Origin: Candidatus Desantisbacteria bacterium CG1_02_49_89
Lineage (GTDB): Bacteria > Desantisbacteria > UBA1551
Direction of reading: 5' to 3'
Length of the DNA: 6,256 nucleotides
Assembly (NCBI GenBank): GCA_001871075.1
Contig: MNUP01000134.1
Location: 1 to 6,256 of the forward strand
A program made the position numbers and the translations under genes. Below, one piece after another: positions 1 through 6,256 of the stretch (the first letter of the stretch is position 1; every line of letters starts with the position of its first letter). The notes under the pieces were generated by a model. That model worked only from the letters and a program-made list of their open reading frames with translations, did not search any database and was not told where the DNA came from.

Positions 1-1049
1 GGGGCCGACTTTAACTGTTCCGCCATTTCATCCGCCTGGCCCTGAAGCTTTTCAAGCTCAGCCCGCTTGGCCTGCAGGGTATTGCTTGCTGACTGGCGCA
101 AATCCTCTTCTTTCTTTATCCTTGCTTCCTCTAATTTCTTTGCGTCCTGCTCTTTTTTCTTAAGAGAAGTTATGGATCGTGAAAGGGAAAGGGTTTTGGA
201 TTTTGCCTGCGCGAGTTTTGATGCAAGAGCGGGCTTGGCTTTTTTGTCTGCTGCTTCAAGCTGCTGGCTTATTTGTTCTTTTTCCGCATTAAGTTTTTCC
301 AGCTCGTCTTTCTTTGTCTGGATTTCGCTCTGGGTTTTCTCGTGTAAAGAAGCCTCTTTCGCTATTCTTGCCTCTTCCTGCTTCTTGGCATCCGCTTCTT
401 TCTTCTCAAGCGCTGCAATGGATTTGGAAAGGGCGGTAATCTTGGATTTGATCTGGCTAGATTCGGCCTTAAGATTAACGGGTGGCTTTTCCTCTGCCGG
501 GGCCGACTTTAACTGTTCCGCCATTTCATCCGCCTGGCCCTGAAGCTTTTCAAGCTCAGCCCGCTTGGCCTGCAGGGTATTGCTTGCTGACTGGCGCAAA
601 TCCTCTTCTTTCTTTATCCTTGCTTCCTCTAATTTCTTTGCGTCCTGCTCTTTTTTCTTAAGAGAAGTTATGGATCGTGAAAGGGAAAGGGTTTTGGATT
701 TTGCCTGCGCGAGTTTTGATGCAAGAGCGGGCTTGGCTTTTTTGTCTGCTGCTTCAAGCTGCTGGCTTATTTGTTCTTTTTCCGCATTAAGTTTTTCCAG
801 CTCGTCTTTCTTTGTCTGGATTTCGCTCTGGGTTTTCTCGTGTAAAGAAGCCTCTTTCGCTATTCTTGCCTCTTCCTGCTTCTTGGCATCCGCTTCTTTC
901 TTCTCAAGCGCTGCAATGGATTTGGAAAGGGCGGTAATCTTGGATTTGATCTGGCTAGATTCGGCCTTAAGATTAACGGGTGGCTTTTCCTCTGCCGGGG
1001 CCGACTTTAACTGTTCCGCCATTTCATCCGCCTGGCCCTGAAGCTTTTC
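1..1049 (-). repeat. 498-bp in-frame tandem repeat, at least 2.1 identical copies, inside the coiled-coil coding region
   Basis: In coding order the copies are 1049-552 and 551-54, with a third copy begun at 53-1 and cut by the window edge. I see no mismatch between the copies. The upstream boundary is sharp: 1050 differs from the matching base 552. The period is exactly 166 codons, so reading frame is kept. Each unit contains two diverged half-repeats, about 82 and 84 residues. One carries ALSKSIAALEKKEADAKKQ and the other LSLSRSITSLKKKEQDAKKL, followed by EEARI(A/K)KE and later (D/A)ELEKL. The half-repeat duplication is therefore old, and the 498-bp duplication is very recent or kept identical by recombination. 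The total copy number cannot be seen. Collapse or artificial extension of the array during assembly is possible because the window ends inside it. Confidence 0.93.
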
Positions 1050-2042
1050 CTGTTCATCTTCAAGTTTTCTCAATTTACTTTTTTGCGCGTCTATGTCATC
1101 CTCTATTAACTTGGCGATTTCGCTTTTGTCTCTGTTTTCACCAAAAGATGCCCCTGCGCTAAAGTTCATCCCTTCGGTAAGGTCAAGGAATGTGGCGCCG
1201 CCGCGCACGGTTATCGGCAGCCCGGTGAATTCTTTAAGGTCCCTTTCTATTCCCAGGCAGATGTTGGAAGAGGTTTTGATATAATAGGAATTATAATGGT
1301 AGTCGTAATCAAACGCGACCAGGAAATCGTAGACCGAAAAGCTCATGCCCGCCCTTATCCCTATCGGGAGCAGGTCGGTGCAGGTTCCCGCCTGGTGTAC
1401 TGCGTTTACGGTTACGATATTCGGCTGGTTGATGTCTGTAAGCGCAAAACCAAAACCCACGTCCTTCGCCGGTTTGTAGAAGGCGCCGGCGTCCACGCTT
1501 ATCCCGCCCCAGCCCAGATCGTCTTCCATGTCAAGCGAACCGGCAGTATAGAACTGGCTTTCCGCGCTTTTCCAGGAAAGGTACTTAAGGGTGCCGGCGA
1601 TCGTCAGGTTGTCAAAAAGCTGGTATGCGTAGGTGCCGAACACGGCAAGCTCGTTATACTTGCTTGCTGAGAAGTAATTCACGCCTCCGCCAACGGTGTG
1701 GCCCTTCATTATCGGCGTTGAAAAAACACCATAGCTGTTCATCAGCAATGATTCGTTCTCCAGCTGGCCCAGGAAAGGAAACGAACCCGTGAAAGACGCT
1801 GACATCTTGTCAAGCGTGCCGATGCACGCGGGGTTTATGAGCATGCCGCTTACGTCCCCGCTTACTCCGCAGAATGCTTCCCCCATCCCCTGCGCCCTGG
1901 CGCCGGTTGTTATCAGTTCCTCGAACGCGGCCTTGGCTGAACCGGTGAACATTGAAAAGTGAAGAGTGAAGAGCAGAACTACTATCGTTAACGTACTCGC
2001 TAACACCTGAAGTTTTCTGATTTCCATTCTATTTTTTATCAT
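1..2042 (-). CDS. PorV/PorQ-type outer-membrane barrel with long C-terminal repeat coiled coil (3' end outside window)
   Basis: The frame is open from the ATG at 2042-2040 to the left edge (680 codons, no stop), so the C-terminus is missing. The start is chosen because AAGGAG lies 6 bases upstream; a second ATG (codon 6) is too far from it. Residues 1-38 form a signal peptide with a hydrophobic core (TIVVLLFTLHF) and a likely cut after GSAKA. Residues 46-77 (TGARAQGMGEAF...INPACIGTL) match the N-terminal signature of the PorV/PorQ and UPF0164 outer-membrane families. Alternating amphipathic strands rich in G, Y and F continue to about residue 302 (GASFGEN), a usual length for these ~14-strand barrels. 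From about 305 the protein becomes highly charged, K/E/A/Q-rich coiled coil, and from residue 332 it consists of 166-residue tandem repeats. Pro-containing breaks (AEEKPPVN, KKAKPAL) suggest helical hairpins rather than one continuous rod. In T9SS, PorV is the outer-membrane shuttle protein; that role is not shown here. The barrel assignment is good; the function of the coil is unknown. Confidence 0.8.
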   Translation of the reverse strand, partial: MIKNRMEIRKLQVLASTLTIVVLLFTLHFSMFTGSAKAAFEELITTGARAQGMGEAFCGVSGDVSGMLINPACIGTLDKMSASFTGSFPFLGQLENESLLMNSYGVFSTPIMKGHTVGGGVNYFSASKYNELAVFGTYAYQLFDNLTIAGTLKYLSWKSAESQFYTAGSLDMEDDLGWGGISVDAGAFYKPAKDVGFGFALTDINQPNIVTVNAVHQAGTCTDLLPIGIRAGMSFSVYDFLVAFDYDYHYNSYYIKTSSNICLGIERDLKEFTGLPITVRGGATFLDLTEGMNFSAGASFGENRDKSEIAKLIEDDIDAQKSKLRKLEDEQEKLQGQADEMAEQLKSAPAEEKPPVNLKAESSQIKSKITALSKSIAALEKKEADAKKQEEARIAKEASLHEKTQSEIQTKKDELEKLNAEKEQISQQLEAADKKAKPALASKLAQAKSKTLSLSRSITSLKKKEQDAKKLEEARIKKEEDLRQSASNTLQAKRAELEKLQGQADEMAEQLKSAPAEEKPPVNLKAESSQIKSKITALSKSIAALEKKEADAKKQEEARIAKEASLHEKTQSEIQTKKDELEKLNAEKEQISQQLEAADKKAKPALASKLAQAKSKTLSLSRSITSLKKKEQDAKKLEEARIKKEEDLRQSASNTLQAKRAELEKLQGQADEMAEQLKSA

Positions 2043-2089: not shown

Positions 2090-4393
2090 TTATCTCGGTG
2101 AGTATATCTTCAGGAATATCGTCTCTTCCTTGCCGTTCAAGGAAGCGTCTGCCATATTGTAGGTCATATTCCTGACGTAGCCCAGTATCAGGGGATATGA
2201 ACCTGCTTTAGAGACAAGCTGTGCCGCGATGGTCAGCCCGTCGTAATCGTTCACGGATTCAAGCGGCAATCGCACAAGCTTATACTGCACTCCCGCGGTG
2301 AACGTTGTCTTGTCGAACAGCTTGTAAACCGCCTTTAGCAGGAATGCGTTCGTCTGCCTTTCGGAAAGATAGAGCGATGAGTAGGGCGAGCTTGAGCCCT
2401 TCTCTACCCAGCACTTCCACTGCGGGGTAAGGGTGAAAAGCTTTGTGGGCTTGTAGTCATACGCGGCGTTTGTTATTAACCCGGCCCACCTCACGCTGCG
2501 CGTGTCTGTGAACTGGTAGTTGTAGTCATACCTGAATTTGTTTGAAACGGTCAAGCCCGTGAACCCGTTGTATTTTGTCTCGATATAGAAATTATTCAGC
2601 AGGCTGTCCTCAAACGCGAGCAGGTCCTTGCCTGAAAAAACATCGTAGGCGCTGTCGCTGGATTTCAGCTCCACAAGGTCATCCGCCAGGTTGTCCTCTA
2701 CTTTCTTTATATTGTGCCATATCAGGATCTCCCCGAGGTTGGAAACCTTGGCGCTGTATTTTGTCGTAAGAAAAAGGTTGGTGGTTTTCTTGTCCCCGAA
2801 CGCCTCTGTGAAGTAATCGTAGCCGCCGTTAAGCTCCACGTCTTTCAGGAGCGGATAGTTCAAATTAAACCCGAACCCGTGCCTGTCAAGCTTGACAGGA
2901 TAGTCCGGCAGGTCATCATCCTCGTATACGTCGGCTGTTCCGTTGTTGTTGCGGTCGTTCCCGATCCAGAATTTCGGCGGGTCCACTATGAACAGCATCA
3001 TATCCTGTTCCCAGTCACCCACGTTATCAGAATCCCTGTCATACGCTATGTGGTACGTGGGCACGGGATTGCTTGTGCCGCTTCCCCCGCACCTTCCTGT
3101 CTTGTCATAGTACCAGTCGTAGTCATCGTTGTCGTCAACGTAAGTAAAGCCCTCAAAGGGAGTGGACCAGTTCGGGGAGCTGAAGCTGGGATGCGTGAAG
3201 AAATAATCTCCGCTTACAGAGAGCTTATTGTCTATGAATTTAAGGCCGGTGAAATCGATCTTCCTGTCAGCCTTCACGTAGAAAACGGGATACATCGCAA
3301 GGTCCCTTTCCCCATCCTTTGTTGGGAATTTCCTGTACTGGTTATTGAAATCGCACTCAACGCTGACATTGGCTCCGTACACGGTCCCGTCCGCGGTGAC
3401 AGCGATCATGTCACTGGCGCTGGAAAGCCCGTAATTGTACGTGACCTGCTGGGCGATGTCATCCTTGGGGTTGCCTGGAGCGCGCAGCATCGTCGCGTAG
3501 CCGGCCTTATCCGACTTTATCTCTATCTTGTAATCGTTTGCCACGGATATAGAAAATTTTACGCCTTTCGCGTTCGCGGGTACCGGGATGACGCACTCAA
3601 ACAAAGAAGCCCCGTTCGCTTCCATGGGAACCGGGACAAGCGTTACCGCGGTGTATGCGCCTCCGTCCACAGAATACTGCAGATCCCACAACTGGGCTCC
3701 GTATCCGTCCTGCGGAGAATCATCGCTGAACCGCAGCGTTATTGTACCCGGCGCGTCATCTTTCACATTGCCGAAATATGAAGTTTCGTTTATCAGATTA
3801 TAGTCCTTCCAGTGGTGGATATAAGCGCCGCTCAACGTAAGGTTTATTTCATCCATTTTCAGTTTGTACTCGTCTTTTACTCCTATAAAATACGTTGAAA
3901 ATTCTGTTTCCGTGGTTCCTGTAGGCGGATAGCCTAATGAAGTGTTGGAAGTCCTTGAGAAGAAAAAATTCGCCTTGTGAGAGGGAGACTTGAAGGTTCC
4001 CTGGAATCCCGGGAACCAGATCTTTTGGAAAGTGAAGGGGGTGAGCTTCACGTCAAAAAGCTCGGTTGAAAAAGAAGGGCGCCCCGTGACTCCCCACATG
4101 TGCAGCCCTACCTTGAATGTAGCCGATACCTTTTTATATTTATCCGAATAGTTCACTTTATAGCCCTGGTCTGTTATGAACCCCCAGGCTTCGCCTTTCA
4201 ACAGCGAGCTTCCGCCGTTAAGGCCGTTGATGTCAACAAGCCCTATCGACCACAGCCTGCAATTCAGGGATTCCCCGAACAGGTCGTAATAACTGCGCTT
4301 TTGAGGCGCTTTCGCCCTTTTCCACTGCGCCATTGCCGTGCCGGCGCATAACAGCACCCCCGCTGCAACTAACAAACATGTTGCTTTTTTCAT
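2090..4393 (-). CDS. Large beta-rich outer-membrane/surface protein with EF-hand-like loops (family not recognised)
   Basis: This is a complete 767-residue protein (stop TAA). Residues 1-22 are a clear signal peptide (MKKATCLLVAAGVLLCAG, cut after AMA). The mature part is dominated by alternating amphipathic beta-strands rich in aromatic residues, with many Y/F/W-flanked turns, typical of an outer-membrane barrel; strands from about 500 to 767 are especially regular. The C-terminus (ETIFLKIYSPR) ends shortly after a strand but lacks the classic terminal Phe. Residues about 212-300 look like an inserted Ig-like or carbohydrate-binding beta-sandwich (YSVDGGAYTAV ... FECVIPVPANAKGVKFSISV). Residues 420-494 hold three Asp-rich loops: DDNDDYDWYYD (420-430), DRDSDNVGDWEQD (452-464) and DRNNNGTADVYE (480-491). 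The last fits the EF-hand loop at positions 1, 3, 5, 6, 9 and 12. Calcium binding is inferred. It could be a porin, a secretion channel or an adhesin; length alone argues against SprA/Sov, which is about three times larger. Confidence 0.8.
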   Translation of the reverse strand: MKKATCLLVAAGVLLCAGTAMAQWKRAKAPQKRSYYDLFGESLNCRLWSIGLVDINGLNGGSSLLKGEAWGFITDQGYKVNYSDKYKKVSATFKVGLHMWGVTGRPSFSTELFDVKLTPFTFQKIWFPGFQGTFKSPSHKANFFFSRTSNTSLGYPPTGTTETEFSTYFIGVKDEYKLKMDEINLTLSGAYIHHWKDYNLINETSYFGNVKDDAPGTITLRFSDDSPQDGYGAQLWDLQYSVDGGAYTAVTLVPVPMEANGASLFECVIPVPANAKGVKFSISVANDYKIEIKSDKAGYATMLRAPGNPKDDIAQQVTYNYGLSSASDMIAVTADGTVYGANVSVECDFNNQYRKFPTKDGERDLAMYPVFYVKADRKIDFTGLKFIDNKLSVSGDYFFTHPSFSSPNWSTPFEGFTYVDDNDDYDWYYDKTGRCGGSGTSNPVPTYHIAYDRDSDNVGDWEQDMMLFIVDPPKFWIGNDRNNNGTADVYEDDDLPDYPVKLDRHGFGFNLNYPLLKDVELNGGYDYFTEAFGDKKTTNLFLTTKYSAKVSNLGEILIWHNIKKVEDNLADDLVELKSSDSAYDVFSGKDLLAFEDSLLNNFYIETKYNGFTGLTVSNKFRYDYNYQFTDTRSVRWAGLITNAAYDYKPTKLFTLTPQWKCWVEKGSSSPYSSLYLSERQTNAFLLKAVYKLFDKTTFTAGVQYKLVRLPLESVNDYDGLTIAAQLVSKAGSYPLILGYVRNMTYNMADASLNGKEETIFLKIYSPR

Positions 4394-4479: not shown

Positions 4480-6087
4480 CTATTTGGCAAGTGTTATCGT
4501 TCCGTTCTTGGCAACATTCCCTTTCTTGAGCTGTATAACGTAAACGCCCACGGGGCATATTTGCCCCTTTTCATCCCGGCCGTCCCAGGCTACGGTCTGG
4601 TCCCCTATCACTGCCTGCCGGCTGAAAAGCGTTTTCATCAGCTTGCCCTTAAGATCGAATATCTTCACTGTAACATCGGTTGGATCGGTACCGGCAGTGA
4701 ACATCAGACTGGCTTCGTCATTCCTGCCGTCACCGTTTGGAGAAAATGGGTTGGGGAACAGGTTAAATCTGTCAACAGTGGCTTTTTCGTCTGTGGCAAA
4801 TAAAATAAAACTTGAATACGTCTGTCTGATTGGATGGCTATATGTGGTTGTTTTTCCGCCGGAAACAGCTACCGTGGCAAAACCGCCGCCCATACTTCCA
4901 AGCGTTTCTGTATTGTTTGTCTCAAAGGTATAGCTGTCCGTCCATATCCCACTTCCGTTAAGTGTTAATGGAGTGCCTGATACCGGGACTATCGTCACGG
5001 CGCAGGAGTCGGCAGGATCCGTGCTCATGGGTATATTAAAATGAATCTTAAAATTCACAAGTTCGCCCGGCACCAAAACGGCTTTATAAGAACGTTCGGC
5101 ACCAACTTCGGTATTTATTGCTTTTACTGCAGATGTTACCGTTACTTTTTTTAATACCGGGGTAATCTTGCCTGAGACGCTTTTAAGAATCGCCCTGAAC
5201 TGAAAATATTTATTTGGCGGGCTTTTAATTTCGCATTCCCCTGAATTTGTAACAGCTGTAGCAACCGTATCAAGGCTTGCGTTTAAACCATCAGGGCTTG
5301 AAGCTGAAGCAGTAAGGAACGCTATTGTGCACCCCTCGGGTATATCAGCAATCCAGGATAGCTTTCCAAAAGTGACATCTGTGTCGCATTCAAGCAGGTT
5401 AGAGGTGTAAAGACCGTAGGTGGCACCTGAAGCTTCCGTTAAATCAATAAGCTCAAGATCATCAAACCACACTTTACCGTTGCTGGTTCCGTCAGTTACT
5501 GCTCTGACAGTTACTGATGTGTAACTTGGATTTTGCCAATTAACATAGCCGTATGTCCATGCGCCGGATGCACTTACCACCGCAGTCGGGTCGCCCGTGG
5601 GAAGATCAGACATGTCTATTGACGTGGAACCAGCGAAACCGCTATCTCTGAATATCCACACTCCGAATTTGTATGTATGACCAGGTGTTACAGTGAAAGG
5701 TCCATTGGTGCTGCTTGCGTTTGAATTTACGCAGATACTTTTTAATGACCACGCACCCGAATGTACCTTGTCACTGGCTCTGTCTGCATCACCAGCTTCA
5801 GTCCAGTTGTCAGCATCTTCGTTAGTGCCAGCTTCGAAGGAATAATTCGGAATAAGATTCTTGGATTTGATCAGTATTACATATCCCCTTTCATTATATT
5901 CTACTTCAGTGTCACTGCCGGTAATAAAATCCATACTTTCCTGAACCCAGGGGAGGGATCCTGCAAAAGCTATATGGTTCTTCTCCAAATGTTGTCGTAT
6001 AATAGAATAAATAGCATTAATGCTCTTTAAATAACGAGGGCACCTGTTGACTTCTTCTCTGCTATAGGGTATAATATTCTTTGGCAA
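4480..6087 (-). CDS. Modular secreted protein with CBM-like and FlgD/T9SS-like C-terminal domains; 5' end replaced by IS sequence
   Basis: The frame spans 535 codons (stop TAG), but only residues from about 38 on look native. Residues 77-215 (NLIPNYSFEAG ... KVWFDDLELIDL) have the pattern of a CBM4/9-like galactose-binding jelly roll. Residues 223-318 (YGLYTSNLLEC ... KYFQFRAILKS ... PVLKKVTVTS) form a beta-domain common in surface proteins of uncultured Gram-negatives. Residues 330-430 are probably another Ig-like domain. Residues 441-535 are a FlgD-like/CHU_C-type C-terminal domain: NLFPNPFSPNGDGRND, VTVKIFDLKGKLMKTL, VAWDGRDEKGQICPVGVYVI. In T9SS bacteria such domains direct export. No signal peptide is present. 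Residues 40-45 (AFAGSL) look like the last part of one, and the junction with the mobile element lies at residue 38. The only far-upstream start is TTG at 6087 without a Shine-Dalgarno; the first ATG is codon 52 (5934). As it stands the gene is probably non-functional or makes a non-exported product. Confidence 0.75.
   Translation of the reverse strand: MPKNIIPYSREEVNRCPRYLKSINAIYSIIRQHLEKNHIAFAGSLPWVQESMDFITGSDTEVEYNERGYVILIKSKNLIPNYSFEAGTNEDADNWTEAGDADRASDKVHSGAWSLKSICVNSNASSTNGPFTVTPGHTYKFGVWIFRDSGFAGSTSIDMSDLPTGDPTAVVSASGAWTYGYVNWQNPSYTSVTVRAVTDGTSNGKVWFDDLELIDLTEASGATYGLYTSNLLECDTDVTFGKLSWIADIPEGCTIAFLTASASSPDGLNASLDTVATAVTNSGECEIKSPPNKYFQFRAILKSVSGKITPVLKKVTVTSAVKAINTEVGAERSYKAVLVPGELVNFKIHFNIPMSTDPADSCAVTIVPVSGTPLTLNGSGIWTDSYTFETNNTETLGSMGGGFATVAVSGGKTTTYSHPIRQTYSSFILFATDEKATVDRFNLFPNPFSPNGDGRNDEASLMFTAGTDPTDVTVKIFDLKGKLMKTLFSRQAVIGDQTVAWDGRDEKGQICPVGVYVIQLKKGNVAKNGTITLAK
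5976..6000 (+). repeat. Candidate terminal inverted repeat (left) of the ISL3-type element
   Basis: The sequence begins GGTTCTTCTCCAAATG. The leading GG followed by TCTT is what ISL3-family ends generally look like. Its length is set by analogy, because the matching right repeat lies outside the window. On the minus strand, the bases just beyond it (5975 downward) resume the codons for AFAGS of the interrupted gene. Confidence 0.45.
6013..6024. repeat. Perfect 12-base palindrome AGCATTAATGCT in the IS left end
   Basis: The sequence is its own reverse complement over all 12 bases. It sits between the candidate terminal repeat and the transposase promoter, about 23 bases upstream of the -35 hexamer. 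It could be a binding site for the transposase or for a host dimeric regulator, but a chance AT-rich palindrome cannot be excluded. Confidence 0.4.
6047..6075 (+). promoter_or_regulatory. Near-consensus sigma-70 promoter of the transposase gene
   Basis: The -35 hexamer TTGACT (6047-6052, five of six consensus bases) and the -10 hexamer TATAAT (6070-6075, perfect) are separated by exactly 17 bases. Transcription would start near 6082 and give a leader of about 37 bases carrying the Shine-Dalgarno. This is unusually strong for a transposase gene, which is often kept weak. Confidence 0.8.
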
Positions 6088-6105
6088 AAAAAACCCGAAG
6101 CAAAA

Positions 6106-6111
6106 AGGAGG
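6106..6111 (+). promoter_or_regulatory. Strong Shine-Dalgarno of the transposase gene
   Basis: AGGAGG, preceded by a run of A, is followed by seven bases and then ATG at 6119. This fixes the start of the plus-strand gene. Confidence 0.85.
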
Positions 6112-6118
6112 TCCACAG

Positions 6119-6256
6119 ATGCCAGATAATATTATATCACAATGCCTTCAATTGTCAAGCGTAAAAGTCGTTTCCTGCTGTGTCCATGAAGATGAAGTTG
6201 ACATAATCCTTGCAAGGGACCCTTCCAAAGGTTTCTATTGCTCTTCCTGCGGAAGC
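6119..6256 (+). CDS. ISL3-family transposase, N-terminal 46 residues (3' end outside window)
   Basis: The frame opens with MPDNIISQCLQLSSVKV and stays open to the right edge. The N-terminus has the layout of ISL3-family transposases (IS204/IS1001/IS1096/IS1165 group). A short helix is followed by a beta-hairpin with alternating V/I and acidic residues (CCVHEDEVDIILA). Then comes the first half of a zinc ribbon, C41-S-S-C44-G, expected to bind DNA at the element ends. The catalytic DDE domain would lie to the right and cannot be checked. A strong promoter and Shine-Dalgarno precede the gene, so it looks intact and expressed at this end. Another zinc-ribbon protein is possible, but the terminus-like sequence upstream and the interrupted neighbour favour a transposase. 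Confidence 0.68.
   Translation, partial: MPDNIISQCLQLSSVKVVSCCVHEDEVDIILARDPSKGFYCSSCGS

Follow-up and report, generated by a model that had tools for sequence, protein, structure and literature searches.

The left end of the window, which is the whole of contig C37 (6256 bp) from a 2.48-Mb genome assembled in 150 contigs, carries a gene that probably encodes a tether between the outer membrane and peptidoglycan, made up of a PorV/FadL-like barrel, an inserted and duplicated periplasmic coil, a second coil and an OmpA domain. Within the inserted coil, an exact, recent tandem duplication lies atop an old one. The gene (1..2042, minus strand) begins with an ATG at 2042 that is preceded by AGGAG, runs off the contig inside the repeat array and continues at positions 1-1195 (plus strand) of C126, another contig from this genome, as indicated by the open reading frame, the NCBIfam match and the overlap between the contigs.

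TRF reported a period of 498 with 2.1 copies, a 100% match and no indels over window 1-1049, and direct comparison showed that window 1-551 equals 499-1049 exactly, with the first mismatch at 552. Read on the minus strand, the 498-bp unit (166 codons) has an open frame throughout. In coding order, a first copy at 1049-552 (552..1049) is followed by an identical second copy at 551-54 (54..551) and then by the beginning of a third at 53-1 (1..53), which is cut by the contig end while the array runs on beyond the window. Both contigs end in the array, and the copy number is at least 2. Each unit in turn consists of two diverged 83-residue halves, in which 36 of 76 aligned residues are identical, half of these (18/36) with the same codon, and the DNA is 55% identical; their alignment score is 180, compared with 52 +/- 8 for shuffles. 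Since half of the shared-residue codons have changed between the halves, the inner duplication is old, while the exact outer duplication is recent. These results bear out an earlier note on this DNA, which had described identical 498-bp copies, a third one begun at the edge and diverged half-repeats within each copy.

A 9-bp direct repeat, GAAAAGCTT, is found at the array entry, where 5' unique sequence meets the unit (1041..1049, minus strand), at the unit/unit joint (543..551, minus strand; also 45-53) and at the array end (C126:83-91), and nowhere else in the known parts of the gene. The unit/unit joint combines the left side of the exit with the right side of the entry, and entry and exit have just 9 bp in common. 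We propose that an unequal exchange would have taken place between two GAAAAGCTT copies at equivalent positions of the older 83-residue repeat; because these copies lie two old repeats apart, the resulting unit would be exactly 2 x 83 codons. Judged from these sequences, unequal crossover between the older 83-residue repeats is well supported as the origin of the duplication. The exact repeat and the unique 9-bp repeat at its joint thus agree with one of the two origins named in the earlier note (slippage or unequal crossover), a recent, in-frame unequal crossover in a coiled-coil gene that already contained repeats. Once formed, identical 498-bp copies would make the array prone to gain or loss of units by homologous recombination, and its copy number is expected to be unstable.

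When the same genome was searched at the DNA level with the array, one other place was found, C126, which starts within the array and supplies the remainder of the gene. Over its first 91 bases this contig agrees with window 633-543 (reverse strand) at all positions except one, after which the two sequences part. A 397-codon frame at the start of C126 comprises the coil end, the stretch FRYRIDYAM...THRFSFGADF, a second coil and the OmpA domain. No single contig spans the middle of the array, and C37 and C126 are joined on the strength of their overlap, the reading frame, an ortholog and synteny; this ortholog, which has an uninterrupted barrel, the same OmpA domain and a related downstream gene, supports the join. 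If the C126 copy directly follows the third copy begun in C37, the gap between the contigs would be 363 bp, the frame would be kept and the protein would have at least about 1213 residues, values that are arithmetic on a gapped locus and not observations. The contig ends gave no consistent word size for the assembler, as no single value fits both the 53 bp that C37 extends into the third copy and the 38 bp that precede the base change on C126.

The joined gene encodes a PorV/FadL-like barrel whose strands 12 and 13 are separated by the coil array; strands 13-14 are followed by another coil of ~159 residues and then by the OmpA domain. An N-terminal signal-like segment (residues 15-53) lies ahead of the barrel strands, and strands 1-12 (1140..1925, minus strand) were placed from the ortholog, which is 41% identical and has 14 strands in its model. 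NCBIfam PorV_fam matches the window protein (E 5e-15); for the PorV/PorQ family NF033709, both the window protein (55.8 bits) and the ortholog (59.8 bits, over profile positions 13-326 of 326) score below the curated cut-off of 90 bits. The T9SS PorV equivalog NF033710, the type IX shuttle protein, was rejected as an assignment (26.8 bits against a cut-off of 250). On C126, Pfam identified the OmpA domain PF00691 (E 4.8e-23; 81.8 bits against a gathering cut-off of 27.2), with an HTDSIGS...LSTARAEAV stretch containing the usual Asp and Arg, and this domain is predicted to bind peptidoglycan. The Pfam scan detected no SLH domain, and scanning the coil for families yielded weak, chance-like coil matches (Snapin, SMC-like) at most.

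Comparison within the phylum involved two genomes, the source genome and Ca. Desantisbacteria CG1_02_38_46. With the barrel alignment as a search query we recovered the CG1_02_38_46 ortholog and some distant barrels, whereas a scan of the genomes' contigs with the whole protein gave no match. In the ortholog (483 residues, 41% identical over the shared barrel), the barrel is continuous and leads through a short helical linker to an OmpA domain that is 49% identical to that on C126; the insert is lacking, and the gene that follows the ortholog is related to the gene that follows the C37/C126 gene. The insertion site falls between NLSFGGSYKN and FQIDYAMIIS of the ortholog, that is, between strand 12 (276-285) and strand 13 (292-301) of its model. 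The barrel fold was tested on the ortholog and not on the split gene; the ortholog is modeled (mean pLDDT 65) as a 14-strand, FadL-like barrel, and Foldseek found it to resemble FadL (E 6e-10) and T9SS PorV 6h3i_F (E 5e-8). In this model, strand 14 runs straight into a helix and the OmpA domain, and the 12-13 turn shares a side of the membrane with the strand 14 C-terminus and the OmpA domain. Usual barrel topology, applied here to a model of medium confidence, therefore places the turn in the periplasm. Thus, the coil insert is predicted to be periplasmic and not surface-exposed, contrary to the earlier designation of the gene product as a surface protein. The barrel would sit in the outer membrane and the OmpA domain would grip peptidoglycan, with both coils in the periplasm.

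The inserted sequence has a coil periodicity of 3.56 (power 14.9 compared with 6.8 for the 95% level of shuffles). AlphaFold2, run on the single sequence, modeled it as long helices with a mean pLDDT of 84.7, although helix packing is not established by this model (pTM 0.40). Its shape matches suggest that adjacent helices are folded back against one another. The helices span residues 53-210 and 219-376, so that each unit has one 158-residue helix, broken only at a Pro-rich hinge, PAEEKPPV (975..998 and 477-500, minus strand). Model confidence dips at KAKPALAS (717..740 and 219-242, minus strand), which we propose as a mid-unit hairpin tip. In a one-copy insert of 255 residues, the hinges would lie 47 and 50 residues from the ends and the tip, which contains Pro, near the middle (136/119), positions that would fit a hairpin doubled back on itself. 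Since the insert must leave and return to neighboring strands, each unit can be read as one helical hairpin running down and up in the periplasm, an arrangement that we prefer because the chain could then return at any copy number. Both ends of the insert are fixed to neighboring beta-strands, so extra units may add side-by-side helices and not a longer rod; they would thicken or extend a stalk beside the C-terminal coil and leave the barrel intact. Whether copy number changes the length of the coil, as had been proposed, is consequently uncertain.

Alternatively, the units could form straight rods of ~158 residues (23-24 nm) that are hinged at PAEEKPPV and fold back on each other, in which case copy number would alter the reach of the stalk or would have to keep the rods even in number. 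The one helix break per unit in the model, the model's best shape matches, which are long antiparallel hairpins (e.g. chemoreceptor 2ch7_B), and the nearly equal length of the C-terminal coil (159 residues) all favor such rods. However, a chain that opens with a 42-residue helix and returns to the adjacent strand is not closed by 158-residue rods alone, and single-sequence structure models often draw helices across weak breaks, so we regard rods as possible, if rather unlikely. Under the hairpin reading, the array and the C-terminal coil might together make up one stalk in a single-chain connector between outer membrane and wall, the thickness or reach of which would be tuned by gain or loss of 166-residue units; this extension of the tether proposal is speculative, and we hold it with considerable doubt. 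Another alternative is that the duplication is neutral and still unselected, having struck a dispensable linker and left the work of the protein unchanged. The insert is present in one genome only and related barrels do without it, as this explanation would have it, but the coil periodicity and the open frame were kept through the old 83-residue duplication even as half of the shared-residue codons changed, so the coil has probably been kept by selection. We regard this explanation as unlikely, while the newest unit copies could themselves be neutral.

Two further explanations were considered. The perfect duplication could be an assembly artefact in which a graph loop was walked more than once or a longer array was collapsed, a concern that the earlier note had raised. 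Both contigs stop in the array with its middle missing, and identical 498-bp copies are hard to place with short reads. Nevertheless, the unit/unit joint can arise from tandem copies only, given that entry and exit share just 9 bp. Nine shared bases are far below the word size of any assembler and could not lead a k-mer assembler to produce this joint; there is accordingly at least one real tandem duplication. The C126 copy moreover carries its own base change, and together with the joint this shows at least two tandem passes. The concern therefore holds for the number of copies and fails for the existence of the duplication, and we judge an artefact to be improbable. The coil could also form a surface structure, such as an adhesin-like spike. 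Copy-variable coiled-coil repeat arrays are known in surface proteins (PMC524362), in which variable tandem-repeat stalks are also common (PMC9704523); against this, the insert enters the barrel on the side where the strand 14 C-terminus and the OmpA domain lie, which is periplasmic by barrel topology and makes a surface location very improbable.

The proposed tether resembles SlpA of Deinococcus-Thermus and OmpM of diderm Firmicutes, in which a long periplasmic coil, measuring about 28 nm in SlpA and differing in length between species, links a barrel to a domain that binds peptidoglycan (PMC9388160, PMC10628300). Like these proteins, the C37/C126 protein combines an outer-membrane barrel, a long coil and a peptidoglycan-binding domain. 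However, SlpA and OmpM are trimers with the coil and SLH domain at the N-terminus, whereas the C37/C126 protein has its coils inside and after the barrel and a C-terminal OmpA-type wall-binding domain, with no SLH domain found. Lpp of Escherichia coli likewise connects the outer membrane to peptidoglycan as a helical tether, and its length determines how wide the periplasm is, but it is a small lipoprotein covalently bound to the wall and without a barrel (PMC7156740). With respect to its array, the C37/C126 protein is similar to periscope proteins in having near-identical tandem repeats in an envelope protein (here 100% over 551 bp), although periscope proteins are variable-length surface stalks of separately folding domains (PMC9704523) and this array is a coil, predicted to be periplasmic and seen in one genome. 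Vaa and Lmp of Mycoplasma hominis contain ~110-residue coiled-coil cassettes or ~500-bp intragenic repeats in variable number; they are surface antigens of a wall-less bacterium (PMC524362), and no kinship to the C37/C126 protein is claimed. The described examples that we found of length change through repeat number in envelope proteins are surface proteins. If the array varies within a population, it would provide a natural series of outer membrane-wall tethers differing in length or thickness, for which laboratories otherwise engineer Lpp. The locus also provides a clean case of a barrel turn taking up a large coil, with an empty site in a related genome and the exchange point at the joint.

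The source genome has many PorV-like barrels, at least four of them with a C-terminal OmpA domain, attached via a coil on C23, C149 and C132 and via another linker on C140; the insert is absent from all four. The PorV-coil-OmpA proteins of the source genome and CG1_02_38_46 share the barrel type, C-terminal coil and OmpA domain with the C37/C126 gene but have no insert between strands 12 and 13. The barrel profile matched 243 of 386 genomes. Among roughly 150 best matches listed, nearly all reach the end of the profile within about 840-1090 bp, the exceptions being the C37 gene, whose match ends at strand 12, a match that lies next to a contig end and another that falls a few positions short; the insert is accordingly rare among these best matches. 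Some relatives of the barrel in other genomes carry what by eye are CsgG-like repeats, together with an OmpA-like C-terminus, which extends the design of barrel, variable module and OmpA beyond the source genome. A literature search for PorV-OmpA coil fusions returned nothing of use.

Directly upstream of the tether gene and in the same direction, window 2090-4393 (minus strand) encodes a 767-residue protein that is probably an outer-membrane barrel and has no Pfam or NCBIfam match. The product of window 4480-6087 (minus strand) looks secreted and combines a carbohydrate-binding-like region with a C-terminus of the FlgD_ig/CHU_C type, which suggests type IX-like sorting in the lineage; a SprA_N search for the type IX translocon gave no match, its control being likewise silent. 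Downstream, C126 1200-9660 encodes a 211-residue protein, ClpC, a TPR protein with YbgF/BamD-like repeats, a TonB-receptor-like barrel and a TolQ/ExbB-like protein. At the right contig end, window 6060-6256 is a repeated element, which matches C71:47353-47550 at 98% and, over 34 bp, the end of C4; an ORF from 6119, for which no family matched, resembles a transposase N-terminus by eye.
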